This document shows, piece after piece, positions 25,801 to 44,133 of a stretch of DNA of 45,198 nucleotides. The stretch comes from a virus. Positions within the stretch are counted from its first letter, which is position 1; every line of letters begins with the position of its first letter. The translations under genes were made by a program, and so were the position numbers. The DNA is taken from positions 1-45,198 of IMG/VR virus record IMGVR_UViG_3300035698_003692; one strand, 5' to 3'. The notes beneath the pieces are model-generated. The model was not told where the DNA came from. It saw only the letters and a program-made list of their open reading frames with translations, and did not search any database.

Positions 25801-26692
25801 GCAAGAAGCATTAGGAAAAATTGAAAACCTAGAGCAACTGCAGAAAGAATTTCCTGAAATCTATAACTCATTAGCGAAAGCAAAAAGACTTAATGATATT
25901 CCAAAAAATGCTGCTGGATTTAAAAGCTTTATGGATGTTCTATCAAATGAACCACCTGAAGATGGGTTAATAACTGGAGATGAAGAAGAGGAAGTTAAAC
26001 CAAAGATGAGACCAGAAGCTAAGGCTGGAGAGTGGTCACCTGCAGGTGTTAAAGTGGATGATGATAGTTCTTTGCCGACTGATATAATTGACAATGGATT
26101 AGAAATGGATAGGACCAAAACCCCAAAGAAAGAGGGTAAAGGTTTAGATGCTATCAGTGCAGTTGGAGATGTAATTTCTGGTATAGCTGACTATGCTCCA
26201 GCAATATATAACATATCAAAAGGTATGGGAGGAGCAGCTAAAGCAGAGAGAAATTATGTTAATCCTGCTATGGAGCAATACGAGAATAACTCTCAAGCAC
26301 AATTAAACTCTATTGATGACGCATTTAGTATGGCTATTGGAAATTCTAGAAATTTATCTGGAGGATTAGCTAGTAATTTTAGGGCCAATGTGGAGAAAGC
26401 TCATGCAGATAAGTTAGGTAGAACTAGCCAAGTTAATGCTCAAGAGACTCAAGTAGCTACAGGTGTTGCTAACAGGAATGTACAATCATTGAATCAGGCT
26501 AAACAATTCAATGCTAACGTAGATAATAACGCAGACCAAATGGATGCAAGAGCTGTGGCATCTAGAAACAGTTTCCTAGGTCAGGGTATAAATGACGTTG
26601 CTAATATAACAGCAGTTAAAAATAAGGATAAAGCGGCAGAAAAGAATCAAGGTATGCTTTATGATTTAATGATGAACAGTAATAAAAGATAG
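22838..26692 (+). CDS. virion cargo protein with tail-lysozyme domain
   Basis: 1284 residues. The N-terminus (about 20-100) is Gly/Ala-rich and hydrophobic (GGISGAMGAVGQISSN, later FGPIGAGIGAGAGALFGG), suited to membrane insertion. Residues about 145-215 hold a strand domain with KTHEQGGEDYKAEKGDIIMPG. Residues about 252-396 match the phage tail lysozyme type: GLIVNLAYETNDFKN with a candidate catalytic Glu279, then GTKGYGLAQWTDSPTTKRR and a C-terminal helix pair. A helical, charged region follows, then an Asn/Gln/Ala-rich C-terminus (from about 1190) typical of crAss-like cargo. It would be ejected and cut peptidoglycan. It follows the muzzle by one base. Confidence 0.75.
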   Translation: MEEKLIKSAAEKGLKFEGGASDIIGGISGAMGAVGQISSNLKSAKELDERGNRMGKVDAVGNTLAAAGAGAQLGSMFGPIGAGIGAGAGALFGGITSLTASTPSADDMIFKEGEFQLGQSVSSYLPEDAFAKQQLMAKNGMNVDEGGKTIEVERDEVVLRKRGKSFVKVADFKTGKTHEQGGEDYKAEKGDIIMPGKLRNKVNTLLRGRKWSSIESMRLKLPRDSGQPSFAEGTSSIEDPSTPDKSKTPNIPEYLFNSLVNNGLSKTAARGLIVNLAYETNDFKNLEEIGTNVHGTKGYGLAQWTDSPTTKRRTAFENYLEENNTDVTDLEANVGFLISELKGEQDYNVGLSMKTLNSAKSVKEAANIVLTKFERPHDQSEEHLNKRIKRSSKFLEETKKYTPPKSEEVKQVKEEIKSIDEEQEFWKNQSALRHRGSTKGKAASLKNKKAKENFGGGRNGSVSPEDLEAAGEEVRFIDKFNFWVDDTVSSAAMGLGYAGNQLVDFFTGSDSQDSFDELKFEDTPEGKVLEKEYQDVIFNAIDDEETLSLAGLTDSANFISKWSTNLLTAQSTSGTDLYRGANLLSMYDEDGVNSIRAKLKEKGISKEGMFLFEDMTRSPQNYYSSNIKGADAIDALTLLMNPMGAVNGTKSLIKAVPAGAKMTGRLVKSGIDTGAKATVWTAKKAKTALKALKEVDWKTAPKKLWDGVDKMLQDAPMYAKGEDMFSILNEAEKLSKTTKNSTEATELGKKVRTYKSTYEDVISLAKKGRNNLSKIVYGSSFDDLKTFRQKVKSTTGLEWKEASKLTKTELANATKRQMKGFESEVDAWNTKMKSSHAKYKAKKEELLQKVDADGKAFAENHPEVVKLNKELDDIATKMDKLDVMGETLKKRTPMAFDKDYNILDVEIQVPGSPQVTEDSKLYAESYKSIVRNMDNMNDSFQRTQNLKTAKTAEQLADFEKTTAGVVDKSLTNITKESNKALRPLMKGKQEALGKIENLEQLQKEFPEIYNSLAKAKRLNDIPKNAAGFKSFMDVLSNEPPEDGLITGDEEEEVKPKMRPEAKAGEWSPAGVKVDDDSSLPTDIIDNGLEMDRTKTPKKEGKGLDAISAVGDVISGIADYAPAIYNISKGMGGAAKAERNYVNPAMEQYENNSQAQLNSIDDAFSMAIGNSRNLSGGLASNFRANVEKAHADKLGRTSQVNAQETQVATGVANRNVQSLNQAKQFNANVDNNADQMDARAVASRNSFLGQGINDVANITAVKNKDKAAEKNQGMLYDLMMNSNKR

Positions 26693-26694
26693 TT

Positions 26695-28326
26695 ATGAAT
26701 ACAAATATGTTTGAAAAACCTATAGCAGCAAACCCTATTAGTCAGTTCTCTACACTTCCTCTTCAGTTTATAAACCAACTTCAGCAACAAAAAGCTCAAA
26801 AGGAGGTAAGCATGATAGCTATGGAGGATGAAATCAGTAATTCATTAATAGGAACCTCAGCTTTACCTGGGGATGCAAAAAGACATCAAGAAATTATTGG
26901 AGGTCTAGAATCTGAGCTAGATGTTATAGCTTCTAATGCTGGGGACTATAGTGAGATCCAAGGAAAGTTACAATCTATTAAAAGAAAAGTTTATCGTGAA
27001 ATGAGGAATGGTGAGCTAGGTTCCATAAACAATAACTTCAAAGCTGCAGCTTCTAATAGGGAGGAGCAAATGAAAAACTTCAGAGCAGGTAAAGCTAGTA
27101 AAGCTGGTATCACTTTATCTATGCAAGGTGCAAATACTCATGTAACAACTAGGGATGAGTTTGGACAATGGAGTTCTTTTAGACCTTATCAGCCTTCCAC
27201 AGTGACGGATTTCTATGGAGAACTTACTAAATCTGCTAAAGATATACAAGAGCAATATGACGAGATGGGTCAGGGTATGAAATCTAATGAAGCTATTTTA
27301 AGTAACCTTACTGCCAAGCTTGTTGCTAAGCCAGAGATAGAAAGTGCAATGAAGGAAAATTTTAATTTGCAATACACTCCTAAAGAAGATATTAATAAAC
27401 AGCAATCTTATCTGCTGTATAAAAATGAAATGCTATCAAGAATTGTAAAAGATCAGGCATTCCAAAAGATTAGCGAATCAGAAGCTGGTAGTGGTAATAC
27501 GGGTGGATTAATTCTTGATAACTTTAAAGTTGATGGAGGTGGATCTAGTTCTATGAAAGGTGGAACTGTTCCATGGCTGAGAGAAGTTGGGAAAGATTGG
27601 TTAGGCTTAGACTCAACTGGAGAATTTGATAAGTGGAAGAATTCTGAAAAAGGTAAGTTTGAGATAAAACATTTACAACAATTAACTGGTACTACAATGC
27701 CAAAGGATCACACTGATGCTGTGTCTTGGTATGAGGATAATATGCAGAGTAATTTAACCACTAGTATATCTACATCTAAAGTTCCTGCCAATTTAAAATA
27801 TTCTATTATTAATAAAAAAGGATTTATCAATGTAAATTCTATAATTAAAAATAGAAATGGAGAGGCATTAAGTGAAGACTTCATTCAAAACAATATTGCA
27901 GGTTCAGATAAAGAGGGTAGAACAGCTCAGGTATTTGCAATAGCAAATGAGGGAACTGGAGTATCTGGAGAATATGTGATTATAGGAAAAGATGGTGAGC
28001 AGTATTTAATGGAACCTAGAGATGCTAAAACTCTTACTTCAGCTAAATATATGAACTCTAAGATATTTGATGTGCAAAGTTCATCAGTTAGAAGTGGTAT
28101 AAAAAATGTAACTTTGTCATCCGACTTAAACGCTACTGATAACAATGGTAACGATATAGTTCTAGATGCTGGACAGTATGAAGTAAGAAATGAAACAGAT
28201 AAAGAAGGGAATAGTCAAGGAGTGACATTATACCAAGATGGAAAGCCTATGTATGCTGGAGTAAAAAGACAAAATACTGATGGTACTGCAAATATAATTC
28301 ATGTAAAACTAAGCAATGGAAAGTAA
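26695..28326 (+). CDS. putative virion cargo protein, 543 aa
   Basis: Begins MNTNMFEKPIAANPISQFSTL, then a Gln-rich helix (FINQLQQQKAQKEVSMIAM) and long helices to about residue 130. The second half is beta-rich (IAGSDKEGRTAQVFAIANEG, YVIIGKDGEQYLMEP). No enzymatic motif. It lies between the lysozyme cargo and the giant zincin protein, separated by two bases upstream and overlapping the next start by 11 bases, so it is part of the cargo operon. A role in packing or ordering the ejected proteins is inferred from context; the family is not recognised. Confidence 0.6.
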   Translation: MNTNMFEKPIAANPISQFSTLPLQFINQLQQQKAQKEVSMIAMEDEISNSLIGTSALPGDAKRHQEIIGGLESELDVIASNAGDYSEIQGKLQSIKRKVYREMRNGELGSINNNFKAAASNREEQMKNFRAGKASKAGITLSMQGANTHVTTRDEFGQWSSFRPYQPSTVTDFYGELTKSAKDIQEQYDEMGQGMKSNEAILSNLTAKLVAKPEIESAMKENFNLQYTPKEDINKQQSYLLYKNEMLSRIVKDQAFQKISESEAGSGNTGGLILDNFKVDGGGSSSMKGGTVPWLREVGKDWLGLDSTGEFDKWKNSEKGKFEIKHLQQLTGTTMPKDHTDAVSWYEDNMQSNLTTSISTSKVPANLKYSIINKKGFINVNSIIKNRNGEALSEDFIQNNIAGSDKEGRTAQVFAIANEGTGVSGEYVIIGKDGEQYLMEPRDAKTLTSAKYMNSKIFDVQSSSVRSGIKNVTLSSDLNATDNNGNDIVLDAGQYEVRNETDKEGNSQGVTLYQDGKPMYAGVKRQNTDGTANIIHVKLSNGK

Positions 28327-31300
28327 AGAAATAGATTCAGATTTAACAATGTTGGATAAAAATAAGGAGCCCGATTTCTTAGACCTTTTTAAACCATCTA
28401 AAACTCCTCCTACTCCTACACAAGCACATGTTCCTCAAAAAGCATTGGAAAGTCAATTAGTTGGTAGTACTGTTAAACAGGGTACTGTTGATGAGTTAGA
28501 TAATTTCGGAAGTTTGTTTGAAAGTAAAAATCAAACAAGAGCTAGAAATCAATCGGAAGCTATCAAAGGTGTTAAAGCTGTTGGTGGAGGTATTTATCAG
28601 GGAGCTTTAATTGCATTAGAACAATTAGGTTATGTAGCAGATCTTGATACATACACCAATATGTTTAAAGAAACTGAAGACTTATCTGGAAATTTCTGGA
28701 CTAGAGCATTTAAAGATGCTCAGGAAGCTGGTAGGGAATCTGATATGTTTAAAATATATGAAGATAACCCTGATGAAAACAGTATCCTATCTCAAATTTT
28801 TAAATGGAGTTCTGTAGAAGGAGCTGTTTCTTCTTCAATTGGATTTGGTTTAACGGGATTAGGAGCTGCCTCTTTAGTTTCAAAACTTGGAAAGTTAAAG
28901 CAATTTACCCAGCTTGGTGCTATGAGTGACAAGTTATTTGGATTAGCAGGAGGAACCAGTAAAGCCATAACAGGCCCATTGGCATCTTCTATGACTTCTA
29001 ATTACTTCATGGGACAAATGATGGCTACAGATACTTTTAATCAATCCATGGAAGTTCTTAGGTCTGAGGGAAAGATAGGAGATGGTGAAGGTCAAATGTC
29101 AGAACTAGAAGCTCAGAAGATAGCAGCCAATAATGCACAGGAAGTTGTAGGCTTAAACATGTCTTTGGTGGCTACGTCCTATTTAAAGTTTGGTAACATA
29201 TTCAAAAGAACTTCTAAGTTTGGTGTAAAAATCAGTAATCCGAGTACTATGGCTCAGATGAAAGATATGATTATTAAAGGTTCTCCTACTGCAATGACTG
29301 AAAACATATTTCAGGAGATGATTCAAATGGAGCAAATTTATGATACTTCTTTTGAAACTGGAATTGCTACAGATTATTCAAGTGACTACTGGGATAGAAT
29401 GTCAGAGTTAGCATTATCTGATAGAGCAATGCATGCAGGAGCATTAGGTGTAGCAGGTGGACCAATACAGTTTGCTATCATTCAAAAGCCTTTAATGAGA
29501 GAACAATTAAAGCAACAAAAAATAGCATACGATAAACAAGAAGGCTCAAACAAATGGGGTAAAGAACTAGTTGAGAATAGAATCAATACTTTTAAAAAGT
29601 TTGAAGAAGCTTCTAACAGAGCAATAGTTTCTATTGACCCTGAAGCATCTAGATTGGCTGATGATATGAGTATGATTGAAGAGATAGCTCACCATACTAA
29701 ATGGGGTCAATTAGACTTCTTTAGAAAAGATGTAGAGAATGCTTTAGAGATGACTCCAGAGCAATCTAAGGAATTAGGTTATGATGATAACTACAAAGAG
29801 ATAGCTCAAGAATTACTAGGTACAATAGACTCAGCGAATGAATACAGTAAAAAATATTATTCATTAGAAAACTATGATACTATAGTTTATAATAGATTAA
29901 TCGCTGACAGAGTATCTAAAGATCATGCAATACTGCAGGAGAAAATCATGGGTATAGAATCTAAAGCTTATGCTGTGATAAGTACTTTATATCCTCAACA
30001 TTTATCTTCTTTAGACGAGAACCTAAACATAAAGAGAGACCCTTCAAGATTTGAAGGTATGACTGATTTAGAAGTAACTAAACTTAGAGCAAAAGAACTT
30101 AAAGCTGATGTAGAGATTAAAGAAATACTTGCTACTATTCCAGAATTTTCTGAGTTGCAAGATATTAAAAAGAAACAAACACAAAGGAAAGAATTATACA
30201 AAAAACTTAATACAAAATTTTCTGAATTAACAAGTGAGAAATACCAAAGAGATTACATCAATAAAGAAAAACAAAATGCAGATAACATTGTACAGGCTGC
30301 TAAAGATAAAACTAAAGAAGACAAACTAGATGCTATTAAAAAAGAAACATCATTTAGGAAACTAGATGATGTTATTTCTGATAAAGGAACAGAAAAACAG
30401 CAACTACAAAGAGAGAAGAATTTAGTTGAATTCAATAATACCAAGTTACAAAGACAAGGAATTAAACAAGGAGAAACTTTTACCTCAATTGACAAGAATA
30501 AAAACAAAAGAGAGTTCTCACCTGATGATTTACTTAGGTCTGTAGATGGGAGATACTTTAGAGTTAAGGGTCAGAATTATGCCACTAAACTAAAAGGAGG
30601 TCTTAAATTTGCTGCCAACCCATTAATATATGAAACTGATGCTTTTGGTAAAGGAAATAAGAATTCTTTAATTGAACTTACAGATCACTCGTTCCTACGT
30701 CCAGAGATTAAGCATCCTAATAGTAACGGAAAGTATGTATCATCAGGTCCTGAAAGTTCTTGGGGCCCTTACGCAAGAGTAGATTCTATATTGAAACCTA
30801 ATAACTTTTTATATGAAGAGGCTAAAAGAGAAAGAGCTATATTAGGTGAAGCTATTACAGTTAGGAATATGGAGTACAAGAGCAATAGGTCTAAAACTTT
30901 AGAGCCTACTCCAAATTCAGAACAATTTAATTTTACATTAGCCAATGAGGTTCTATTTGATGGGGATACTATTGACATTGAAATAAAGCCTAGGCTTGAA
31001 GGAGATGGTAATAATTTCTTAGATGTGTTTATTGGAGATCAAAAAGTTTCTAGACTAGATAGACAATCAAATATAAACTATGATGCTATTATTCAAGCAC
31101 TGAAGAATGGTCCAGTGACTGGTAAAATTGTACAAAAGTACACTAGCAAATCTAACTTGGTTCAAATATTAGATAATGATGGAAATCCTATTAGGAGTTC
31201 TTTATCCGAAATGAAGAATATGAAATCTGAGTATTTGCCTAATGGTAAAGTGTATATTGCACAAACTCCTGGGGAAACTACTTCTATTGATTTAGCACCT

Positions 31301-34300
31301 ACTACTATATCTGAAACAGGAGAAGTAATATCTGATAATTTCCTTACTATAACAAAAAAGGATGGTACCACTACCACGGTAGAGATTCCTTATTCAGCAA
31401 TGACACCTGGAGATACTTATGCACTTATCCTTTCACCTGCAGGTAGATTAATGCCTGTGTCTACGTCTACTAAACAAATCATAGAACTTAAAGGTAAAGA
31501 TGGTCAAGAGGGTTCTTACATAAATGATATTGTTGAAGATATAAATGATTCAGTAGATAAATTATTTGGAGAAATAACAGAAGATGAAACTGCCTTTGAT
31601 GAAGCTTTAAAAGAAGAAATTGCTACTTCAGGAAATAAAACCAATTCAGAAATTCAAAAAGAGTTTCAACAAAAGAAGAGGGAACAAGTGTCTTCTCAAT
31701 TTGAACAACAAGTTGCTGAATTTAATGATAATGTATTTAAACACTTTAGAAGTAATTCTTTTAAATACACTATGATTGGAAATGTTGATGGTACTTATGA
31801 ATTTGCAACAGATACTAACTCATCAAATCGTAGAGCTAAAATTTTAAATGCAGGTTACTTTACTGTGGGAGTAGGATTAGATTCCAACAATAAAATATCT
31901 CCTTACGTTACAATTAAAAACCCAGATAGAATTTTAGAAAGATTGGATGAGAGAGGGAAATCTAGATCCGATAACTTTATATATGTTCACTTAACAGAGA
32001 ACCCTCAAGATTTTAAAACTTTAATTAGTCAGAGAATGAGGAAAGTTTCTCTTAGAGAGATGCAATCTGCAACTCCAGCTATTGCTAAAGATTTAATATT
32101 CAATCAAGGTATAACAACAGATTTAAACTTAGCCCAGCCTTTTGCAGGAACAAGTTTAACAATAAGACTTGATGGTAAAGATATTCAAGATGCTGGTGCT
32201 AGAGCAGCTGAGAAAATTCAATCAAAATTTAAAAAGTATAAGAGTAACCCAGTATCCAAAGAAATTACAGAAGATGTTGTAACAAGACTTCAAGATACAT
32301 TAACTTTTGATGAAGACTCTGATTCTATTAACTTAAACATATTATCTGAATCTGGGAACCTTGAACAATTAATCGAAGAGGGAGAGGAGATACTAAGACA
32401 AGCTAACTTATCTGGTTCTAACAAGATTATTAAAGATTTCCAAGACTACATGAATGCTGAAGTGACAGAAGCTAATGAGTCAGAAATTTCAGATATGGCT
32501 GAAAGAATAAGAGAATCAGGAATTAAAGATGAAAATAATGAACTTGCTAAACTAGGTACTTTCATACAGACAGCTGTAGATAAAATAAACTCTGGAGATT
32601 ATAAAGTAATCAGGAGAGCATCTATACTTAGAGCAAATCCAGACGGTGATGTATTTAAAAAAGGAGTTGTAGTCTATAATACAATTTATGGTAAAGTAAC
32701 AATTCATTCTTATAGTAAAGATAAGTACACCTTTAAAACAGCTGATGGTAAAGTTAAAGTAATATTTCCACATCAAACATTTACACCTACAAGTAAGCAT
32801 ACAGAACTCCATAAAATAGTTAAGTCTATGGAAAAGGTGGATCCAAAGTCTGCACAGTATGAGACACTTGAGGCTAAGAAAACTAGGTTAGAAAATGAAT
32901 TATTTAAAAAGGATTCTAAAAATGATAAGACAGATGATGGAGAAAATAAGTCAGATTTCATACAAGCTGATGAAGATGCATTAAATTCTACATTAAAAAT
33001 ATTTGGAGCATTTTCAGAGGATAACAGTTTTCCTCTAGATGGATCACTGGTTAAAAATGTATTTAAAGCTTTTAATACTGATAGAGGAAATCAATTTTTG
33101 AATAACATATCTAAAATAGCTAATCTAAAAGAAAGATTGCTAGATAAATATAAAGGTGAAAAGATAACAAACTTCACAGTACTTAAAAATGAGGATATTG
33201 AAGCAGTTTATTTAACACTTCAAGACTCATTAATGTACTCTAAGGAATTGGTAGATGGATTAAAATTACTAAATAATTCTTCTAAAAATTCTCTAGATAT
33301 AGATTCTTCTTTAATTACAGCATTAGAAGAGTACACTGAGTATTTATCAAATGATATGCCTTTAGAGGAATTAACTTTAAATTCAAAATCAACTACTTCG
33401 ACGGGTAAAAAGATTAATAAGAAGATTGAGTTAATTACTGCGAAGTCTACAAATTTTGAACGTGCTTTAATATCTTTATCAAAACAAGCAAACTTTCTTA
33501 GGGAGGTATTTGAAACCGAAGTTAGATTAAAGGAGTTGAGTTCTTTTGTAGATAAACCTAAAATTCCTAGTAAGCCTAAAACCCCTACTAGCAATAAGAA
33601 ATCTACACAAACTAAACAAAATGATACTCCAGATGCACCTCCAGCTGCATCTAAAGCAGCAACTGATGATGGTATTAATCCTATGAATACATCTAAGGAT
33701 AAAGCTGATGACAGTTCTAATATCAAAGATGGACCTTTTCAAGGGTTCTCTATATCCGAAGAAATGAATTCCGTTTTAGTTGAATGGTTTAACGCAAATC
33801 CTATTGAAGGACAAATACTATTATCGATAGCTCAAAGTGGAGGAGAACACATACTGATAGCTAAAGCTGAGCAATTAGGAGCTAAGTTTAAAAAAGGAGA
33901 TAACATATCTTCTACTGAAGAAGAATTTAAAAATGAAGTTTCCAGAGTAAGTAAGATGCTACCTCAACTAAAATTAGAAGTGGTTGAAGATGTAGCTAGC
34001 ATGGTTCAAAAATTTGGAGTTAAAGCTATTGGAGCATACAACAAAGGAGTATTGTACCTAGTTAATAACGCTAAGAAAGGAACAGGTTACCATGAAGTAT
34101 TCCACGGAGTAGCAGATTTGTATTTAAAACCATCAGAGAAATCAGCCATAGCAAAAGAATACGGACAAGAGACTTGGAACAAGGAACTTGAAGAAAAAGT
34201 TGCAGATGATTTTGCAGATTACGTTAATGACAGAACAATATTATCTAGACTTAAAGGAGCTGTTAAAAAGTTCTTTAGCTCAATGATGAATTGGAAAGAA

Positions 34301-34510
34301 AACTCAAGAAGTTCTGATGTTACAATGAAAGTATTTGCTAATATTGCTAACAATAAATATGCACAAAATACTTCAATAGAAAAATTAAATAATTTAATAG
34401 TAAATTCAGGTACAATGACTCTAGATAAATTTAGTGTTAGGTTATCAGCTGGAGATAAAGTAACTTTACAAAAGTTAATCAAAAGTGGAAATATTAAAAT
34501 AGTTTGTTAA
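28316..34510 (+). CDS. giant virion cargo protein with C-terminal zincin-like metallopeptidase
   Basis: 2064 residues. The N-terminus has a hydrophobic Gly/Ala region (about 168-190: VEGAVSSSIGFGLTGLGAAS), possibly membrane-active. A long helical body (about 350-1750) is followed by a disordered Lys/Thr/Pro linker (about 1745-1800, KPKIPSKPKTPTSNKK). Near the C-terminus is GYHEVFHGVADLY, with the HExxH zinc motif at residues 1926-1930 (Glu1927 catalytic) and an EEKVADDFADYV helix about 30 residues later whose Glu1959/1960 could be the third zinc ligand. Zincin-like domains are known in giant crAss-like proteins. It may cut cargo proteins during assembly or ejection. The polymerase gene starts at the next base. 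Confidence 0.75.
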   Translation: MESKEIDSDLTMLDKNKEPDFLDLFKPSKTPPTPTQAHVPQKALESQLVGSTVKQGTVDELDNFGSLFESKNQTRARNQSEAIKGVKAVGGGIYQGALIALEQLGYVADLDTYTNMFKETEDLSGNFWTRAFKDAQEAGRESDMFKIYEDNPDENSILSQIFKWSSVEGAVSSSIGFGLTGLGAASLVSKLGKLKQFTQLGAMSDKLFGLAGGTSKAITGPLASSMTSNYFMGQMMATDTFNQSMEVLRSEGKIGDGEGQMSELEAQKIAANNAQEVVGLNMSLVATSYLKFGNIFKRTSKFGVKISNPSTMAQMKDMIIKGSPTAMTENIFQEMIQMEQIYDTSFETGIATDYSSDYWDRMSELALSDRAMHAGALGVAGGPIQFAIIQKPLMREQLKQQKIAYDKQEGSNKWGKELVENRINTFKKFEEASNRAIVSIDPEASRLADDMSMIEEIAHHTKWGQLDFFRKDVENALEMTPEQSKELGYDDNYKEIAQELLGTIDSANEYSKKYYSLENYDTIVYNRLIADRVSKDHAILQEKIMGIESKAYAVISTLYPQHLSSLDENLNIKRDPSRFEGMTDLEVTKLRAKELKADVEIKEILATIPEFSELQDIKKKQTQRKELYKKLNTKFSELTSEKYQRDYINKEKQNADNIVQAAKDKTKEDKLDAIKKETSFRKLDDVISDKGTEKQQLQREKNLVEFNNTKLQRQGIKQGETFTSIDKNKNKREFSPDDLLRSVDGRYFRVKGQNYATKLKGGLKFAANPLIYETDAFGKGNKNSLIELTDHSFLRPEIKHPNSNGKYVSSGPESSWGPYARVDSILKPNNFLYEEAKRERAILGEAITVRNMEYKSNRSKTLEPTPNSEQFNFTLANEVLFDGDTIDIEIKPRLEGDGNNFLDVFIGDQKVSRLDRQSNINYDAIIQALKNGPVTGKIVQKYTSKSNLVQILDNDGNPIRSSLSEMKNMKSEYLPNGKVYIAQTPGETTSIDLAPTTISETGEVISDNFLTITKKDGTTTTVEIPYSAMTPGDTYALILSPAGRLMPVSTSTKQIIELKGKDGQEGSYINDIVEDINDSVDKLFGEITEDETAFDEALKEEIATSGNKTNSEIQKEFQQKKREQVSSQFEQQVAEFNDNVFKHFRSNSFKYTMIGNVDGTYEFATDTNSSNRRAKILNAGYFTVGVGLDSNNKISPYVTIKNPDRILERLDERGKSRSDNFIYVHLTENPQDFKTLISQRMRKVSLREMQSATPAIAKDLIFNQGITTDLNLAQPFAGTSLTIRLDGKDIQDAGARAAEKIQSKFKKYKSNPVSKEITEDVVTRLQDTLTFDEDSDSINLNILSESGNLEQLIEEGEEILRQANLSGSNKIIKDFQDYMNAEVTEANESEISDMAERIRESGIKDENNELAKLGTFIQTAVDKINSGDYKVIRRASILRANPDGDVFKKGVVVYNTIYGKVTIHSYSKDKYTFKTADGKVKVIFPHQTFTPTSKHTELHKIVKSMEKVDPKSAQYETLEAKKTRLENELFKKDSKNDKTDDGENKSDFIQADEDALNSTLKIFGAFSEDNSFPLDGSLVKNVFKAFNTDRGNQFLNNISKIANLKERLLDKYKGEKITNFTVLKNEDIEAVYLTLQDSLMYSKELVDGLKLLNNSSKNSLDIDSSLITALEEYTEYLSNDMPLEELTLNSKSTTSTGKKINKKIELITAKSTNFERALISLSKQANFLREVFETEVRLKELSSFVDKPKIPSKPKTPTSNKKSTQTKQNDTPDAPPAASKAATDDGINPMNTSKDKADDSSNIKDGPFQGFSISEEMNSVLVEWFNANPIEGQILLSIAQSGGEHILIAKAEQLGAKFKKGDNISSTEEEFKNEVSRVSKMLPQLKLEVVEDVASMVQKFGVKAIGAYNKGVLYLVNNAKKGTGYHEVFHGVADLYLKPSEKSAIAKEYGQETWNKELEEKVADDFADYVNDRTILSRLKGAVKKFFSSMMNWKENSRSSDVTMKVFANIANNKYAQNTSIEKLNNLIVNSGTMTLDKFSVRLSAGDKVTLQKLIKSGNIKIVC

Positions 34511-37500
34511 ATGGGATGTAAAATAGAATCGGTAACTACCATAGATGGTAATCAATCTGAGTTATTTAAAAAATTATCTGAAGTATATAGCGAAGAAATA
34601 GCATTAAGTAAATATGTAAGTATTTTATCAAATGCAGACAGCTTTAAGAAATTATATGGAACTAATGAACAAGGAGAGCCTAAGTTCAATCCAGAGATAG
34701 GAGCAAAGTTTAAGAAAGATGAATTCGACAGCACTGATGAACAATTAGCTATGGTAGACATACTAGCTACATTTGCTATTGATGTCATTAAAACTATCCC
34801 TAAAGTAAAGGATGATAGCGTAATTTCGGGAATTAATGCTCAGGAATTAGGAAACGTAAAAGGTTTAACTGGACAACTTGTTACAGGTGTTAGAAAAAGG
34901 ATCTCTTCAATTATAGCTGAGAACCCAGGAATGAGTGAGGCTAAAATAGCAGTTCTGGAAAGTGCTGCTAATAATTTGCCTTCTTATTTAATATCTGATA
35001 GTAGAGCTGGAATTGTAGGTAGAGTTCTTAGAGAGTATGGAATTAATTTTTCTGTAAAAAGCTCTAGAGATTCTATGCAAGATATAACAGAGGAGATGGA
35101 AAACTCTGATACAGACTTTGATTTAGAACTTGTTGAGGTTCAGAATGAGAGAATCTATGATATGGAAACAACTGACCAATCAATGATTAATTCTATAAGT
35201 CCTGCAACTAAAGCTTATCTAAGAGCAAAGCGTCAAGTATCTGAAGATTATAAATTGTCTTCGGGTGAAAGAATTAGGTATGATAAGACAGTTCTTAGTA
35301 CAGATAAAGCTGTAGATTCTCAACAATTAATATCAAGTTTATCATCAATCCTTGTAGGTATTCAAACTGTACCTGAAATGATTCAAAGGCTTCAAGAGAA
35401 GGCTGACTCTAATCCAATTATAGTACCAGTTCTCCAAGATTTATTAGTTGAGAATGCTTTAGGTGGGATAAAAATTCAAACTAAAAATTCTACAATACAA
35501 TATAAACCTATCAGTACTTCAATATTTTCTACATTTTCTAAGGCAGATTATAACATGTACACAATAACTAAAACTAGAGATGGTAATGTATTATTATTAC
35601 CAGCAAATAGAAGTAGTGTGTCAGGAGTAATGAAGTCTAGGATGGCGAGAGAAATTACTAAAATTCAAGATAAAAAAGACGATCAATCCAAATCTATAAA
35701 AAAGCTACAAGATTTTGCAGTTACTTTAAAGAAGATAAATAAATTTACTCCTTCTAAATTAAAAGTAATATCAAATCATTTCAGGTCTGCAGGTTTATAT
35801 TTTATGACCCCTGAAGTACTTGCTAAGATAGATGAAACTATTAGAACAAATCCACCATCAAATTTAAAGAAAAATGGAAATCCTAGAACTAGTTCAATAT
35901 TAAATACTCTTTATAAAGGAGTATTAATACCAGCATTAGAAGGGAAAGATGTACTATCTACAAATGATAATAACTTCGGAGAAACTAAATTAATAAACTT
36001 TATTATTAGTGAAGCTTCTAAATTTGAAGTAGATGATAGTGGAGGAGCTTTTAGAAGTAATTCAGGAAAAACAGTACACCCTTATAATAAGAGTTCTGAG
36101 TCTCAAGATTTATTAAAAAGGTTAAAAAATGATAAGGAATATTTAAATACTTTCTTAAAAGATCCTATGTATGAGAACTCATTAATCATTAATGAACTTA
36201 CTACAAATGATGACCCAGATTCTTTAAGACAATTCACTTTAGATACAGTGGCTGATAGCTCGATAGCTAATTCAGGTATTAAGTATGGAAAACAATCTTC
36301 GTTTGATGCAATTGTAGCAAAAATTACAGGATTTGTTTCTACACCTAGCGTACCAACAATGTTCTATGCTTCTAGTCCTACATTCGCAGATAGAGGAAGT
36401 TCTATGGCTATATCAGTACCTAAGATAAATGTATTGGCAGATGGAACAGATTTGGCTGTACTTGAAACTATAAAAGGTAAGACTACTATTAAATCTAAAG
36501 AAGTTAAAAACTGGATAAGGAATCAGATAACATCTGAATTTACCAGAATAATCAACTCACAAAACAGTTCTATAGCATATAAAAACTACAACACAATTAA
36601 TGTAGGTAAGGTTATGTTGTTTGAACAGTTAAATGAATTAATGACTTTATCAGAACTTAAAGAATCAAATAAAGATGCTTATGTTGATGAAGCTATGGAT
36701 TTGATGGATACTATACTTCCTCAAGTTATAGAGCAGGATATTAAAACTTTAGAAGATAACTATATTTTATCGGGAGAAAAAGAGGTAGCTTTAGGAGTTC
36801 CTATTAAGTACAAAACTACTAGAAGTGGAAATAAGTTTCTTCCTGATAGTTTTAAAAATCCTACAAGAGCTAAGGTAGAAAATTTTATAACTAACAATCT
36901 AATATACAATTACGAACAACTATTATTTTATGCAGGAGATTTAGCTTTTTATAAGAGTAAGGTTGACGTAAATAAAAGATTAGGTCTTAGTACTACACCT
37001 GGGGATAAGTTAGCAACTGGTGACGGCTCTGGGGTTTCACCTACATATAAAGTTAAAGTAATTAACGAACCAATTCACAGTTCTACTAATAAATATTTGT
37101 ATGATAAATTGTTTGATGATTCTATTTATAAGGATGCATCAAAGGATAAGAAAGATTTATTTAATAAAATAGAATTAGCTGATGGGTCAGGATTTGGTAG
37201 TCCGTCGAGGTATAAAGAATTATTAATTGGACAAGGGTTACATACTCAAGAAACTATTGAATACTTAGATGCATTAAGTGCTTGGGATCCTTCTCAAAAA
37301 CCTGTAGTTGCAGGACCTAATGTGGTTACTCCAGTGTTGAAAGGATTTGATTGGCAATTAAGGGCTAATAAACATGGAGTAATAGTTCCTACCTCTTTAA
37401 AGTATTCATTGACTTTAGTTACTCCCCATTATTTTGAGGCTACAATTGATGGTAGGGAGGGAAGTCCTTATAAGCATTCTGGAATGGCAGAAGTATCTAA

Positions 37501-40500
37501 AGAACTTAGATCTCGTAGAGCTGATGAGATTGTAGTTCAATCTGCGATGAAAGTTGGTATTAACAATTCAGCTAATATAGATTCTTTGGAAAATGCGCAA
37601 GCTACTGTAATGAGCAATAATAGTTATAGATTTCCACAAGCTGCTACTAGTAAGCAAGATATAACAACTCGTTGGGGAGGTCAGATTAGAAAAATAATAG
37701 CAGCTAATTTAAGTGAAAACAAAGAGATTAGGTTTAGAGGAGAATCTTTAAATGAAGAAGATGCTAGGAAGATATATGAATCCACTATCAAGAAACTTAT
37801 TGAACAGTCTTCAACAGAACTAACCAATGATTATTTAAAAGATGGAGAGTTGAATGAATCTACTATTATTAGTTCTCTTTTAAGTTCTCTAGATCAGGGA
37901 GGTCTTTACAAAAATGTGGAGTATATTGAAGAAGCTTTAGCTGTTGTAGATAAAGATACTTTCTTACCATTAAATTATCCTACACTTGCATTTGCTGTGG
38001 ACTCTATGGTGAACTCTGCATATAAAAGTAGAGTACATAAAATGAAGACACCTGGCTATCAAGCCGTGCAGATTACTAGTATGGGTATGGAAGCTGCTTC
38101 TAGTAAAGGAGAGATTTCTACAAGTTCAGATCTAAAATTTGTAGGGATTGAAAAAATTGATGGAAAGTTCACAGGTTCAGAACAGGACATTAGAACCCAA
38201 AAATTAAAATACATCAAGGACATCAAAAATGGAATAGATGTTTCTTCAGAGGTTACAGTTACTCCAGCTGAGGTTAGAGTTACTCCAAAGTATTTTAAAA
38301 ATGCTATAGCAAAATTAGCATCTGATAGAATACCGAAAAATAGTTTTGATGACTCTTTAAAGGAAACTAAAAAACTTATTGAAAAGTATAATCCAGAGCT
38401 TACTACTTATGAAGTTAAAAGAAGAATCTACGAAGCTAGAAATTCTGCCATAGCTACTGCAGTAGAAATTGAGACCAAGAAACTTCTTAAAAATATCAAA
38501 GATGATAATGGAAACTATTCTATTGATAAAATATTAAAGAATGCTCCAGAATTACTAGATTTAGTTTTGTACAGAATTCCTACACAAGCAAAGAGTTCTA
38601 TGCTACCTGCAAAGATTATTGGATTTTTGCCAGAATCTTTATCAAGTACTATTCAAGTTCCTGCTGAAATTGTTGAACAAGCTGGTTCAGATTTTGATAT
38701 TGATAAGGTATTCATTAGCACAAGAGGTTTATCAATTGATGATAAAGGAAATTTAGCATCTGTTGGAAAAGAGGATTTAAAAGAGACTTTATTTGATTTT
38801 CAACACGCTGTATTAACTTCTCCAAACCACATGAAAGATTTATTACTGCCTACTAGTACTGTGCAACTAGAGAAAGTAATGGAAGAATTTGGTATTACTG
38901 ATGCATTATACACTGGTAATATTGGATCTATATCTACTCAGGAAGCATTCAGGGACAATAACAAAAAAGGTAAAGAACTTATATCAATATTTTCAATTGC
39001 TTCAACTGCACACTCTGTGGCAAGTTATATAGGAGTGAAGCCTACAATACCATCAACAATAGATAACAAACAATTAGACTTATCATTAAGAACAGTTCAT
39101 GAATCTAGTACTAATATTTCAGATTTACTTAAAGAATTACAGAATGCTGCATTGGATAATGCAAATGATCCACTACTGGGTAAGTTAAACGTTGATTCTT
39201 ATACAGCTTCAGTAGTTTCTTTGTTAGTATCAGCAGGGCATCCTTTAAAATATGCATTAAGTATTTTAAATGCACCTATTGTTAGGGACTTAGCATCTAT
39301 GCTACCAATTTTTGAAAAGTTTAAGGGAAAAAAGAGAGCATTAGCATCAGTTAAAAATGAATTAAAAAAGAAGTATAGAATACCTAAGAAGAAAGGTAAA
39401 GGGGTGGTAAACTTAGCTTCTTATACTTTAGATAAAGCTGAAGCAAATAGAACCTTCAATCCAGAGAATTCTATAGCATTTTCTGAATCCCAGAATGAAG
39501 CATTGAATGTATTCTTAGCTTTAGAAAAGATTGGTTCTGCTTTGAGTTCTTTTCAAGTAGCTATGAACTTTGACTCTAGTGGTCCTCAGACATCAGCAAC
39601 GGGATTAATTGGACAGATTAATAACCTAAGAAATATTAGAGGTACTGTTTCAAATAGAACAATGGGACAAATAGCTCAAGAGGTTAATGGATTTGAAGTT
39701 GTACCTGCTAAGTATGATGAGCACTCTTTGAGTTCTTATGAGAAGTTTGGTCTCCATGGACCAGCTGCAGTTAATAAGCTATCTTCTTTATCGGCATCTA
39801 ATGTAGGACAGAAGATTTTAAAGCTAGCAACTGATAACCTAGGGAACTTAACTGATTCTCAACAGATGCACTTTTTGTCAGAGTTTAATACATACGCATA
39901 TCAAACAGAGGGAGTATTCTCAGATTCTGAATCTGGTATTGCTAAAATGATTAAAAACAATGAGCATACAAAACTAATAACTAAAGGGGATGGAGCGTCT
40001 CTAGCTAGTCAAATTGACGGATATACTAAGAGACAAAACCAATTACAGAAGCCAATAAATTTATTTATTAAGCAATTACAAATAATTGATAAAGAGAATA
40101 ATTCATTTGTATTTTTTAATAACACTAAATTTAAAGCTCTAGTAGGTTCTACTAAAGCAGGAATAATGAGAGGTTTTGAGGAATTAATGGAATCTAGAGA
40201 ACCTTTAGATAATTTATTAGCAAAATCAATAGCTGATTATGCTGCTATATTTTATGGGTTCTCGACATCTGTGAACTCATTTATGGACTTACTTCCTCCA
40301 TCTGCTCACGTTGAGTACATGGGTAATCAAGAAGGTAAATCTGTACCTGAATTCTTTAGAGATATGAAGTCAGGTTTAAACAACACAGATAAGTTTAATA
40401 AAATAAATGAGAACTATGTAGACCATTATGTAGCCAAAAATGGTAACAAATTAAATCTGATGAGATTATCTCCAGCCGAAAAAGGAGAGATGATGATGAC

Positions 40501-41029
40501 TGATGAATTACCTACTTACTACTTTGTCTACAATGCAACTAGTAAACAATATATAGCTGAGAAAAACGGAGCTCAAATTTTACAATCTACCAAGTATCCA
40601 GAATTTGTTAAAACCTATGAAGTTACCAAAACTGAAGTAGAAATTCTTAAAGAGCAAAGTTCTCTAGAGAATAAAGGTTCTTTGAGAAATATGCAAGATT
40701 CATTTGGTAATTTTAAAGACCACTTTTTAGATTTAATATCAGATCCTATAAAAGACGGGGAAGCAGCTAAGGAGAATTCTAGACAAATTGTTGATAAAGT
40801 TAAAAGCTTATTAGATGGTTTAAAATTCAGCGCCACGCAAAAAATGGAGATGGCTGAAATAGATTCTTTTAGAGGTGTTGGAAGTAGAGTTGTATTTCGT
40901 CATAAAAAGAATAGTTTAGATACTTCAATATCTGTAGAGTATAAAAAACTTATGAATGAATTTATAAATAAATTCGCCAGCTTTGAAGTGACTAAAATAT
41001 TAGCTGAAAAAATAGAAAATTGTAATTAA
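34511..41029 (+). CDS. virion RNA polymerase (crAss-like, two-barrel family)
   Basis: 2172 residues, close to the size of the single-chain virion RNA polymerase of the crAss-like Cellulophaga phage phi14:2, as I recall it. The key motif is SDFDIDKVF, with aspartates at 1394, 1396 and 1398, the DxDxD triad that binds the catalytic Mg in this family. Nearby PAEIVEQAGSD and PESLSSTIQVP segments form the expected double-psi-barrel neighbourhood. In the known system the protein is packaged, ejected, and transcribes the early genes. The N-terminus (MGCKIESV, SELFKKL, FKKLYG) is shared with the next protein. It starts directly after the zincin protein's stop. Confidence 0.85.
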   Translation: MGCKIESVTTIDGNQSELFKKLSEVYSEEIALSKYVSILSNADSFKKLYGTNEQGEPKFNPEIGAKFKKDEFDSTDEQLAMVDILATFAIDVIKTIPKVKDDSVISGINAQELGNVKGLTGQLVTGVRKRISSIIAENPGMSEAKIAVLESAANNLPSYLISDSRAGIVGRVLREYGINFSVKSSRDSMQDITEEMENSDTDFDLELVEVQNERIYDMETTDQSMINSISPATKAYLRAKRQVSEDYKLSSGERIRYDKTVLSTDKAVDSQQLISSLSSILVGIQTVPEMIQRLQEKADSNPIIVPVLQDLLVENALGGIKIQTKNSTIQYKPISTSIFSTFSKADYNMYTITKTRDGNVLLLPANRSSVSGVMKSRMAREITKIQDKKDDQSKSIKKLQDFAVTLKKINKFTPSKLKVISNHFRSAGLYFMTPEVLAKIDETIRTNPPSNLKKNGNPRTSSILNTLYKGVLIPALEGKDVLSTNDNNFGETKLINFIISEASKFEVDDSGGAFRSNSGKTVHPYNKSSESQDLLKRLKNDKEYLNTFLKDPMYENSLIINELTTNDDPDSLRQFTLDTVADSSIANSGIKYGKQSSFDAIVAKITGFVSTPSVPTMFYASSPTFADRGSSMAISVPKINVLADGTDLAVLETIKGKTTIKSKEVKNWIRNQITSEFTRIINSQNSSIAYKNYNTINVGKVMLFEQLNELMTLSELKESNKDAYVDEAMDLMDTILPQVIEQDIKTLEDNYILSGEKEVALGVPIKYKTTRSGNKFLPDSFKNPTRAKVENFITNNLIYNYEQLLFYAGDLAFYKSKVDVNKRLGLSTTPGDKLATGDGSGVSPTYKVKVINEPIHSSTNKYLYDKLFDDSIYKDASKDKKDLFNKIELADGSGFGSPSRYKELLIGQGLHTQETIEYLDALSAWDPSQKPVVAGPNVVTPVLKGFDWQLRANKHGVIVPTSLKYSLTLVTPHYFEATIDGREGSPYKHSGMAEVSKELRSRRADEIVVQSAMKVGINNSANIDSLENAQATVMSNNSYRFPQAATSKQDITTRWGGQIRKIIAANLSENKEIRFRGESLNEEDARKIYESTIKKLIEQSSTELTNDYLKDGELNESTIISSLLSSLDQGGLYKNVEYIEEALAVVDKDTFLPLNYPTLAFAVDSMVNSAYKSRVHKMKTPGYQAVQITSMGMEAASSKGEISTSSDLKFVGIEKIDGKFTGSEQDIRTQKLKYIKDIKNGIDVSSEVTVTPAEVRVTPKYFKNAIAKLASDRIPKNSFDDSLKETKKLIEKYNPELTTYEVKRRIYEARNSAIATAVEIETKKLLKNIKDDNGNYSIDKILKNAPELLDLVLYRIPTQAKSSMLPAKIIGFLPESLSSTIQVPAEIVEQAGSDFDIDKVFISTRGLSIDDKGNLASVGKEDLKETLFDFQHAVLTSPNHMKDLLLPTSTVQLEKVMEEFGITDALYTGNIGSISTQEAFRDNNKKGKELISIFSIASTAHSVASYIGVKPTIPSTIDNKQLDLSLRTVHESSTNISDLLKELQNAALDNANDPLLGKLNVDSYTASVVSLLVSAGHPLKYALSILNAPIVRDLASMLPIFEKFKGKKRALASVKNELKKKYRIPKKKGKGVVNLASYTLDKAEANRTFNPENSIAFSESQNEALNVFLALEKIGSALSSFQVAMNFDSSGPQTSATGLIGQINNLRNIRGTVSNRTMGQIAQEVNGFEVVPAKYDEHSLSSYEKFGLHGPAAVNKLSSLSASNVGQKILKLATDNLGNLTDSQQMHFLSEFNTYAYQTEGVFSDSESGIAKMIKNNEHTKLITKGDGASLASQIDGYTKRQNQLQKPINLFIKQLQIIDKENNSFVFFNNTKFKALVGSTKAGIMRGFEELMESREPLDNLLAKSIADYAAIFYGFSTSVNSFMDLLPPSAHVEYMGNQEGKSVPEFFRDMKSGLNNTDKFNKINENYVDHYVAKNGNKLNLMRLSPAEKGEMMMTDELPTYYFVYNATSKQYIAEKNGAQILQSTKYPEFVKTYEVTKTEVEILKEQSSLENKGSLRNMQDSFGNFKDHFLDLISDPIKDGEAAKENSRQIVDKVKSLLDGLKFSATQKMEMAEIDSFRGVGSRVVFRHKKNSLDTSISVEYKKLMNEFINKFASFEVTKILAEKIENCN

Positions 41030-41031
41030 TT

Positions 41032-44000
41032 ATGGCATGTAATTTATCATTAAACGCAAGTAACGGAGAGAAGTCAATACTATTCAAAAAAATAGCTAAA
41101 GTATCTAATAATATTGATGTAGCAATTGATGCTTACTACTTTACAAAGACGGAAGAATTTAAAAGGGAATATGGAGATTGGGAAAATGGAGAAGTTCCTA
41201 AAGAGTTCTTAGACCTTAATGGAGAGCCTTTGTACGAAACATTCTCGGATAAAGATTACATGCAAGATATTGATTACTCAGAGATAGAACTTGAAGCTAA
41301 AACAGATATGTATAAGAAACTGATGGAAGAAATTCCGTCAGTTTTAAGTAAAATTGAAAAGAATATTGATTCTTTAAAGAGGACTGGAAAAAATGGGGAA
41401 TTAATTAAGAAATTGGAATACATTAAACCGTTACTTATGACAGGGGACGTTAATACAGGTATTCCAAAATTTATTGAGTCTGCTAGAACCCATATCATAT
41501 CTTTAAGAAACAGAGCCGAAGCTAGAACTGACATTAAGGATATTAGAAGAACCTATAAAGATGCAAAGAGTTATGAGATGGTTCTTGATATTTTAGATGC
41601 ATTACAAATCGATTCAGAGAGTAGAGAAATATTTAGTGAAGACTTATTTAAAGGAGGAGCACAAATTAGATCTGACCTAGCTGAATTGGAGAGCATGTAT
41701 TTCAATGCTGCTTCTAAACATCTGGTGGATGGTCTACATGAGCAAGACAAGAGCTGGAGTAAAGATGACATTAGAAAATGGTTATCATCATCTCCAAGAG
41801 ATGTAAAGTACACTGAAAAGTTACTTGAAGCTATGGTTGATTCCCAAGATAAATTACTTGCTTCTGTGGGAAATTTAGTAGGAAATCAAGAGCATGCAAT
41901 CCGAAGAGAGAAAATTGACTTCAATAATGAGTTATCTAATCTTGTTGATTCTGTCATAGATGAGGCAGGAAGTTCTAATTCAGATAAAGTGTTTTCTCCT
42001 ATTATACATACGAAAGCTAATGGAGAGTTACACATATTAGATATTTCTGCAGAAGATACTAAAGGAAAGAATTTAGAATCTGATGAACAGTTTAGGAAAG
42101 TTCAGGAAATTAAAAGGACTAACCCAAAGCTGATGGAGTTCTTAGTTTTTTACACCGACACAATGACAAAGCTAAACTCAGGAATTCCTGATAGAGCTGT
42201 GTTAGGAACTCGTTTACCATCAGTACTAAAAGATTCTTTAGAGAGAATGCAAGGTAAAAGTATAAAAGAGAACTCTAAACAAATTTGGGATGAGACAGGT
42301 AAGGCTATTCTAAGATCAAACCTAGATATGGAGAAAGGAATGATTAATGATGCTTCTGGAAAACCTATAGATCAAATACCTACCTTCTACACACAAAAAT
42401 ATGATTCAGTAGACTTTGAAGATACTTACAATGAGAAGTACAAAGAACTTATAGAAGGAGGAATGGAAGATAATGAAGCGGGAGTTTCAGCTTCAACGTA
42501 TGCAGAAAAAGTGGCTACAGATAAAATGGCTAAATTAATAACTAAGGATTTATCTCATAGTTTACAAGCATTTCATGCCATGGCTATTAACTTTTCTAAG
42601 AAGAATGAAATTCTAGATTTGTTAGAGTCAGCTAAAGATGTAGTGGAATCTAAGAGAAGACGTTATGTTAAGATTGATAAAGCAGGTAGAACTGTAACAA
42701 CAAAAGATCATTTAGGTAATGTTATACCTGAGACGATTTTGGGTCCTGAATCCAGAGCTGCAGAAACTTTAAATACTTTCTTGCAAATGCATGTGTATGG
42801 ACAGAAGGAAACTGATTTAGGATATTTTGATCTCCTGGGTAAGAAATTTGATACTAACAAAGTTCTTAGGCAGATTAACAAGAAGACTAGTTTGGTTCAA
42901 ATGGCTCTTAACTTTCTTGCAAGTTCAGCAAACATAGCTGTAGGAGAATATAATAATTCTTTGGAAGCTTTAGCAGGTGAATATACATCTGGAAAAAGTT
43001 ATAAGAAAGCAGGAAAAATATACAGACAAGGAATAGGGGATGTAATGGCAGATATTGGCTCACGTAAAAGCAACAGCTTGGTGAATCAAATAAATGACCA
43101 CTACCAAATACTAGGAGATTATAACCCCAGTAATGTTAAAGTGAATGAGAACTCTAAGTTCAAGAGACTATTCAAAACTAACATGCTATTCTTCATGCAG
43201 GAATCTGGAGAACACTTCTTACAAATGAGAATGGGAATGTCAGTTCTTGACCATATCAAAACGTTTGACAAAAATGGAAAAGAAACTGGAACTCTACTTG
43301 ATGCACATAAAAAAGGAGATGGTAAAATAAGCATAGAGAATACGTTCATTGAAGGAAAAGATGGTAAGATTGTTCCTTATGATGTATCTCAACAGAATAG
43401 AGTAACTAATAAGATTTCTGCAGTTCTAAGAAAAGTACACGGTAACTACAGTGCACAGACAGCAACTGCAGCTAAGCAAGATGCAAGAACTGCAATGATT
43501 CTAAAGTATAGAGACTGGGCTTACGAAGGGCTAGTACGTAGATTTGGAGGTAAGCAGACTTATGTGAACTTGGAACAGGATGCAACAGGTTTCTACAAAG
43601 ATGGATTTAATACTATGTGGAAATTAAAAGATGATTTAAAAACTCTGAACTTCCAATTGATAAAAGAAGATTGGCAGAATTTAACTCCTAATGAAAGAGC
43701 CAATGTTAAAAGGTTAGTAGCTGAAGCTGCAACTATTGTTTCATTGATAGCTTCTGCTGCTTTGTTAAGTCACGCAGGGAAGGGTATGGAAGATGATTAT
43801 GATTCTGATAAGCTTACAGATAGACTTGCTTTAGGAGGATTTAATTATTTAGTTTACATGACCAATAGGATTAAAACAGAGATATTTGCTTATGTAAATC
43901 CAGTAGAAGCATTGAGGTTATTCCAATCTCCAGCAGCATCTACAACTTTAATAGAGAACACAATAAAACTACTTGGTCAGTTCATGGATCCGACAGAAAT

Positions 44001-44133
44001 TAGAGAGACGGGAAGACAGAGAGGAGATTATGAAATATTTATTAAAGCTTCAAAGTTAGTACCAGCCTACAAAAACCTATCTAGACTTAACCCAGAGGGA
44101 ATTAAAGACTCAGGAGTGTTTTATATTTTTTAG
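41032..44133 (+). CDS. giant cargo protein with polymerase-like N-terminus and C-terminal hydrophobic segment
   Basis: 1033 residues, two bases after the polymerase stop. Residues 1-68 resemble the polymerase N-terminus: MxC start, SxLFKK[LI] (15-21), then FK-E-YG and a [LQ]NGEP-like turn. The middle is helical and charged. Near the C-terminus is a hydrophobic helix (about 899-916, AATIVSLIASAALLSHAG), then an ALGGFNYLVYMTNRIKTEIF / NPVEALRLFQSPAAS segment I associate with the C-terminal domain of crAss-like ejection proteins and of 'large polyvalent' phage proteins. A membrane channel or an ejection partner of the polymerase is possible. No enzyme motif seen. Confidence 0.65.
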   Translation: MACNLSLNASNGEKSILFKKIAKVSNNIDVAIDAYYFTKTEEFKREYGDWENGEVPKEFLDLNGEPLYETFSDKDYMQDIDYSEIELEAKTDMYKKLMEEIPSVLSKIEKNIDSLKRTGKNGELIKKLEYIKPLLMTGDVNTGIPKFIESARTHIISLRNRAEARTDIKDIRRTYKDAKSYEMVLDILDALQIDSESREIFSEDLFKGGAQIRSDLAELESMYFNAASKHLVDGLHEQDKSWSKDDIRKWLSSSPRDVKYTEKLLEAMVDSQDKLLASVGNLVGNQEHAIRREKIDFNNELSNLVDSVIDEAGSSNSDKVFSPIIHTKANGELHILDISAEDTKGKNLESDEQFRKVQEIKRTNPKLMEFLVFYTDTMTKLNSGIPDRAVLGTRLPSVLKDSLERMQGKSIKENSKQIWDETGKAILRSNLDMEKGMINDASGKPIDQIPTFYTQKYDSVDFEDTYNEKYKELIEGGMEDNEAGVSASTYAEKVATDKMAKLITKDLSHSLQAFHAMAINFSKKNEILDLLESAKDVVESKRRRYVKIDKAGRTVTTKDHLGNVIPETILGPESRAAETLNTFLQMHVYGQKETDLGYFDLLGKKFDTNKVLRQINKKTSLVQMALNFLASSANIAVGEYNNSLEALAGEYTSGKSYKKAGKIYRQGIGDVMADIGSRKSNSLVNQINDHYQILGDYNPSNVKVNENSKFKRLFKTNMLFFMQESGEHFLQMRMGMSVLDHIKTFDKNGKETGTLLDAHKKGDGKISIENTFIEGKDGKIVPYDVSQQNRVTNKISAVLRKVHGNYSAQTATAAKQDARTAMILKYRDWAYEGLVRRFGGKQTYVNLEQDATGFYKDGFNTMWKLKDDLKTLNFQLIKEDWQNLTPNERANVKRLVAEAATIVSLIASAALLSHAGKGMEDDYDSDKLTDRLALGGFNYLVYMTNRIKTEIFAYVNPVEALRLFQSPAASTTLIENTIKLLGQFMDPTEIRETGRQRGDYEIFIKASKLVPAYKNLSRLNPEGIKDSGVFYIF

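Follow-up and report, generated by a model that had tools for sequence, protein, structure and literature searches.

Facing terminal cysteines and a shared N-terminal module in the virion RNA polymerase and neighbouring cargo proteins of crAss-like phages

The stretch of DNA analysed here (the window) is a 45,198-base fragment of a crAss-like phage (IMG/VR record IMGVR_UViG_3300035698_003692), two of whose proteins match the Pfam crAss ring families (CrAss_Ring_1, 1e-26; CrAss_Ring_2, 1e-8). We consider three consecutive cargo genes, encoding a gp47-type protein, a virion RNA polymerase (RNAP) and a gp49-type RNAP-associated protein, and in particular the cysteines at their ends and a module shared by the N-termini of the last two. 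The RNAP belongs with the Crassvirales virion polymerases: it carries the DxDxD motif and is homologous to the crAss001 and phi14:2 RNAPs, its neighbour is homologous to gp49/gp65, and the genome encodes crAss ring proteins. The name of the gp47-type protein comes from gene order and a C-terminal HExxH motif in common with crAss001 gp47. No confident Pfam or PHROGs family was found for any of the three, and single-protein searches returned no close IMG/VR relatives of the RNAP and gp49-type proteins. The features are as follows.

28316..34510, + strand: gp47-type cargo protein, 2064 residues; the sole cysteine is the last residue (codon 34505-34507), and HEVFH lies at residue 1926.
34511..41029, + strand: virion RNAP, 2172 residues, identified by tblastn to crAss RNAPs; DFDID catalytic motif at residues 1394-1398, cysteines only at 3 and 2171.
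34517..34519, + strand: RNAP Cys3, opposite gp47-type Cys2064, from cysteine counts and relatives.
34544..34690, + strand: RNAP N-terminal module, residues 12-60 (SELFKKL...FKKLYG...GEP), a degenerate form of the leader that precedes ADP-ribosyltransferase (ART) domains, from BLASTP, shuffles and alignment.
41021..41023, + strand: RNAP Cys2171, the penultimate residue, opposite gp49-type Cys3, from cysteine counts and junction DNA.
41032..44133, + strand: gp49-type RNAP-associated protein, 1033 residues, identified by tblastn to crAss001 gp49 and phi14:2 gp65; sole cysteine at residue 3.
41038..41040, + strand: gp49-type Cys3, from cysteine counts.
41062..41238, + strand: gp49-type N-terminal module, residues 11-69, with predicted helices at 16-25, 28-37 and 41-47 and a GEP turn, from a profile match, a structural model and a Foldseek match to 6vr4.
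22838..28326, + strand: two proteins of 1284 and 543 residues in the cargo C1/C2 position, assigned by gene order only; neither contains a cysteine or the module.

An M-x-C start common to the RNAP and the gp49-type protein had been recorded from the sequence alone, the cysteine at residue 3 being the part that tells most. DNA at the gp47-type/RNAP junction reads TGT-TAA-ATG. The gene following the gp49-type gene (44158-45198) encodes eight cysteines, mostly in clusters at residues 81-96 and 204-209, and its neighbours are cysteine-poor. In crAss001, cysteines occur at position 2339 of 2341 in gp47, at 5, 1334 and 2404 of 2412 in gp50, and at 5 in gp49; in phi14:2, they are the last residue of gp67, residues 3 and 2179 of 2180 in gp66, and residue 3 of gp65. 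Suoliviridae with a gp47-RNAP fusion keep a C-terminal cysteine on the fusion and an N-terminal one on gp49 at the sole remaining junction, and Intestiviridae with an RNAP-gp49 fusion have a gp47 C-terminal cysteine and an N-terminal cysteine on the fusion. The middle protein of csAssE-Sib carries a cysteine at both ends, and in Leptolyngbya phage JY46 two proteins have one each, at their facing ends. In csAssE-Sib, an epsilon phage (L015, 28385-34787), the RNAP is apparently divided between two genes annotated in different frames, of which the one for the N-terminal part has the module and Cys5.

The window and 12 reference phages obey the same rule, which holds across the crAss-like phages surveyed: at each gp47-type/RNAP/gp49-type junction both facing ends have a cysteine among their 10 or so terminal residues, outer ends and fused junctions carry none, and cysteine is otherwise nearly excluded. 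Every RNAP and gp49-type protein of the first collection has a cysteine in its first six residues, with an overall cysteine content of only 0.17-0.20%; the interior frequency is 0.063%, and 59 of 94 proteins have no interior cysteine. N-terminal cysteines occur at residues 3-9, the distance from the end is 0 to 8 residues, and both TGT and TGC codons are used.

The first survey comprised 80 RNAP loci from IMG/VR, grouped into 62 lineages at 70% identity. Junction state was assigned by a gp47 profile, blind to cysteine, and in reference phages by annotation; RNAP length and motif position were dropped as tests of gp47 fusion because RNAP length varies. A C-terminal cysteine was present in 49/51 RNAPs and an N-terminal one in 43/45 gp49-type proteins, one of the two exceptions being a frameshifted gene with the true start MGNC. 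None was found at the C-termini of 44 gp49-type proteins or of 10 RNAP-gp49 fusions. At the RNAP/gp49 junction, one side matches the other in 43/43 cases. For the gp47/RNAP junction, comparing the C-terminus of the upstream neighbour with the RNAP N-terminus, both cysteines are present in 19 cases and neither in 14, with one discordant (Fisher p 1e-8). Sorted by state, 17/17 split gp47/RNAP junctions have the cysteines and 15/15 fused ones lack them; the figures for RNAP/gp49 are 50/50 and 13/13. The split or fused state changed at least six times (gp47/RNAP) and at least seven times (RNAP/gp49) on the RNAP tree, and cysteine followed it in 5/5 and 5/5 supported independent pairs, each set alone being too small for p<0.05. 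Two complete gp47-RNAP-gp49 fusions of 5,472 and 5,542 residues (L138 and L140; IMG/VR 3300023210_000055 and 3300010883_000118) contain no cysteine at all.

In a second survey of 30 further lineages, for which the rule was fixed before the scan, cysteine was found at 26/26 RNAP C-termini and 23/23 gp49-type N-termini, and at none of the C-termini of 19 gp49-type proteins and four fusions. The RNAP N-terminus carried one in 3/3 lineages with a separate gp47 and in 0/5 with a fused one, and gp47 C-termini did so in 5/5, two of them on the opposite strand. Among 38 other giant polyvalent proteins taken as controls, only three have an N-terminal and only three a C-terminal cysteine, and the virion RNAP of phage N4 has none in the 3,008 residues examined. 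In five lineages (L160, L162, L178, L179, L185) the protein downstream of the gp49-type protein opens with a cysteine-rich stretch (MNxxCEAxPCP), which falls outside the rule.

Right behind Cys3, the RNAP and the gp49-type protein share a small N-terminal helical module of about 60 residues, homologous to the leader of the ART-PolyVal domain. The sequence-only reading had proposed such a module, and its motifs stand where it placed them: MGCKIESVTTIDGNQSELFKKL (S16-L22), FKKLYG (45-50) and GEP (55-57) in the RNAP; MACNLSLNASNGEKSILFKKI (S15-I21), FKREYG (43-48) and GEP (64-66) in the gp49-type protein. Its statement that the remainders differ is also borne out, with no meaningful match beyond the module; the span it drew, to 41250, reaches no further than the N-terminal part of the second protein. 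Compared by BLASTP, the first 100 residues of each protein match with an expectation value (E) of 5e-7 and 35% identity over 60 residues. The Smith-Waterman score is 75, a value reached by 0 of 20,000 shuffles (mean 28.9, standard deviation 5.2, maximum 61), which rejects a composition artefact; the best of 4,158 internal window pairs scored 51. An independent profile, built from gp49-type proteins of relatives and containing neither an RNAP nor the window sequence, recovered the window gp49-type N-terminus (2e-10) and that of the phi14:2 RNAP (1.7e-10); the window RNAP reached only 0.24. An iterated profile gave 3.5e-10 for the window RNAP, a value that is not independent evidence because the profile had already absorbed that protein, and it also matched 4 of 2,280 internal decoys. 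L111, a relative of the window, has the same pair of modules.

Profiles and alignments, in which the same segment runs into or stands before ART domains, identify the module as the leader found ahead of the ADP-ribosyltransferase domain ART-PolyVal in polyvalent proteins of phages. In cr4_1, cr56, cr115 and L028-L032 it leads directly into an ART-PolyVal domain with a SKVVDENGEPLVVYHGT start (PF18760; lowest E 2e-10 among the reference phages cr4_1, cr56 and cr115). Shortened leaders occur internally, ahead of ARTs, in the cr85 gp47-type protein (about residue 2301), a DarB-like protein and dozens of polyvalent proteins of 2-5 thousand residues, and leader-like segments lie in the N-terminal part of the RNAPs of cr116, L078, L085 and L090. 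The gp49-type module is assigned to this leader (S-x-L[FY]..., FKxWFGDW, DENGEP) by the excluding profile, that of the RNAP by pairwise shuffles and alignment. PF18760 itself reaches only E 0.023 in residues 25-91 of the window gp49-type protein (15.9 bits, below the curated cut-off of 31.2) and has no match in the window RNAP. The catalytic histidine of strand 1 (H-Y-D configuration) is absent from both, which read GEPLYETF and GEPKFNPE versus GEPLLVYHGT in ART-bearing relatives; the ART has been lost here, with GEP retained and the YH of strand 1 gone. The predicted fold is a three-helix unit with a predicted local distance difference test score (pLDDT) of about 85 for residues 11-70. Its sole notable PDB match in Foldseek is the phi14:2 RNAP (6vr4; probability 1.00 but E 0.026, root-mean-square deviation 1.8 over 67 columns). 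A sequence search of the PDB also leads to 6vr4, with E 6e-20 when the phi14:2 RNAP is among the alignment rows and 2.6e-5 with an alignment lacking it. An AlphaFold model of the L028 module plus ART is of low confidence (pLDDT 55). Intact-looking leaders followed by an ART start lie within the gp47-type or RNAP polypeptides of L022 (the cr85_1 protein above), L078, L085 and L090, which are candidate injected ADP-ribosyltransferases linked to the polymerase complex.

Fused and split versions of the three proteins both exist, so the parts are able to function as one polypeptide; and a cysteine pair exactly where the polypeptide is cut, with cysteine nearly purged elsewhere, matches the picture expected of a disulfide splice. 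From this pattern we infer that the facing cysteines probably join gp47, RNAP and gp49 by disulfides into one threadable chain that reduction inside the host would release. Giant proteins from two or three separate genes, linked end to end by terminal disulfides, would then form an injectable super-chain, the redox equivalent of a gene fusion, and this is the account to which we lean. In the oxidising virion the separate polypeptides would behave like the single giant polypeptide of other lineages. The chain would pass portal and tail with gp47 first, RNAP next and gp49 last, and host thiols would then reduce the bonds, so that it falls apart and releases the polymerase. In crAss001 virions, disulfides link subunits in the portal-vertex, tail-hub and ring proteins (Bayfield et al., 2023, PMC10172136), so these particles are oxidised enough for such bonds; cargo is thought there to exit partly unfolded through the tail. 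By a speculative analogy with the N4 polymerase, gp47 might lead and gp49 might anchor, in which case the RNAP would need links to both. The weakest step concerns the module: the ART leader would have outlasted the ART, most likely in the role of a folded end-cap or of a docking site next to the coupling cysteine, and could dock the tail of the preceding protein or merely cap the end. In several crAss-like phages, namely cr128 (gp_25418), cr8 (gp_19914) and Rudgehvirus (WEU69872), genes annotated as thioredoxin-like lie close to the transcription block and could bear on disulfide handling.

Several observations weigh against coupling. L125 has an RNAP without a terminal cysteine, the whole fusion of L152 contains two internal ones, L159 has an N-terminal cysteine without a matching neighbour in the locus, and further interior cysteines occur in some reference-phage proteins and lineages. 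In cr116 (L006, 9234-11735, cr116_1) an extra protein of 833 residues with only a C-terminal cysteine lies between the RNAP and the gp49-type protein, possibly as part of a split RNAP gene. Cargo is mostly unresolved by cryo-electron microscopy (PMC10172136), and a literature search that did not include the phi14:2 RNAP paper found no disulfides between cargo proteins of crAss-like phages or other ejected proteins. That a cysteine pairs with the facing end, and not with the identical end of another copy, is read from the correlation. Finally, because the module stands on only about half of the cysteine-bearing N-termini, a role for it in coupling is no more than tentative.

The module, as distinct from the cysteine, might be a decaying remnant of an injected ADP-ribosyltransferase with no present role. 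This is compatible with coupling and fits both the alignment with the leader directly ahead of ART-PolyVal and the retention of GEP without YH in the window, yet we think it unlikely given the conservation. In ART-bearing clades the module is the most conserved stretch, even where the following ART is lost: identity between the orthologs L028 and L031 is 81% in the module versus 27-31% in the rest, and where one pair member lacks the ART it is 57% versus about 31% (L028/L057) and 66% versus 26-29% (L026/cr4_1), about twice that of the rest, a contrast that modular exchange could also explain. In Steigviridae, module conservation is about equal to that of the rest of the protein, or lower.

Alternatively, the terminal cysteines could form homotypic links (RNAP-RNAP, gp49-gp49) or cyclise the RNAP, giving a cargo mesh with no ordered chain. 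A virion is estimated to hold several copies of each cargo protein (PMC10172136), and in an oxidising particle any neighbour would be available to unpaired thiols. Such links predict neither the joint loss of both partners' cysteines on fusion nor the cysteine-free outer ends of both surveys, and cyclisation is impossible for the gp47-type and gp49-type proteins, which have a single terminal cysteine each, so that this arrangement is unlikely.

The sequence-only reading took the module for a signal for packaging or tail passage, common to cargo proteins; on this account the cysteine would be a component of the signal. Part of this stood. The module is present in 23 of the 25 crAss-like records searched, confined to large RNAP, gp49-type or gp47-type polypeptides, and well conserved even without an ART. 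Among gp49-type proteins it opens those of Steigviridae, Suoliviridae, an epsilon crAss phage and numerous relatives from the environment; among RNAPs, some, namely those of phi14:2, csAssE-Sib, L147, L149, L171 and L126. It was found on 65/118 cysteine-bearing N-termini versus 0/37 without cysteine, a contrast that is not independent evidence because the latter are largely gp47-fusion starts. The proposal of a common packaging tag fails as stated, because the search of crAss-like cargo found no module at the N-termini of gp45-, gp46- and gp47-type proteins and because it occurs internally before ARTs in other proteins. It is also missing from about half of RNAP and gp49-type N-termini and is not retained inside gp47-RNAP fusions. 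A module signal is accordingly doubtful; the constant element is the cysteine, which agrees better with coupling of consecutive cargo during tail passage than with an independent packaging signal.

Non-disulfide chemistry, such as a shared metal site, thioester formation or ligation, or redox sensing at entry, would suit the facing-end positions equally well, as would any pairwise cysteine chemistry. Two cysteines per junction make a poor metal site, however, native ligation needs a cysteine at residue 1-2, and disulfides are already known in the crAss001 virion (PMC10172136), all of which makes these chemistries quite improbable. An origin of the codons in nucleotide signals at tight gene junctions, a start-codon or ribosome-binding artefact included, is hardly credible: spacing is -1 to 14 nucleotides at many junctions but spans -4 to more than 500 overall, distance from the end and codon vary, and the opposite-strand gp47-type genes of crAss001, cr128, cr116, DAC15 and cr85, as well as 2/2 new cases, retain the cysteine, which contradicts such an origin.

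Disulfide coupling of the cargo bears on how, in a phage group among the most abundant of the human gut, megadaltons of protein, an RNA polymerase among them, pass a narrow tail in the right order. If it is true, a code of terminal cysteines, following gene fission and fusion, would provide a concrete mechanism, with separate proteins strung together and unhooked by the reducing host cytoplasm; it would explain the avoidance of cysteine in these giant proteins and offer a portable idea for protein-string delivery. The novelty lies in the coupling. Should that fail, the end-cysteine code would still have to be explained in some other way, and the module by itself would count as a variant of the ART-PolyVal leader.

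Among known systems, the leader and first strand (FKxWFGDW ... DENGEP) before or at the start of ART-PolyVal (PF18760; Tox-ART-HYD2-like ARTs, Iyer et al., 2017, PMC5512222) correspond to the module, but the window proteins lack the catalytic histidine of strand 1 and the remaining ART; fusion of ARTs to virion RNAPs is a described theme (PMC5512222). PhiCrAss001 gp47, gp49 and gp50 (PMC10172136) are homologous virion-packaged proteins with terminal cysteines, and the passages found in that paper describe disulfides in portal-vertex, tail-hub and ring proteins and do not mention cargo cysteines. The phi14:2 virion RNAP, gp66 (PDB 6vr4), resembles that of the window in its N-terminal module, DFDID motif and terminal cysteines; in its partner gp65, Cys3 is present and no module can be recognised. 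Disulfide-stabilised phage tails, such as that of phage Milano, likewise contain virion disulfides, which in the accessible part of the report (PMC10811340) stabilise structural proteins and do not join ejected proteins end to end. The N4 virion RNAP (gp50) is also a giant injected polymerase, with no cysteine in the 3,008 residues examined; its N-terminal region serves injection, its middle is the polymerase and its C-terminal region serves encapsidation (PMC5512222). In contrast to the window RNAP, it is an unrelated T7-type polymerase and a single polypeptide, and therefore has no junctions to couple.

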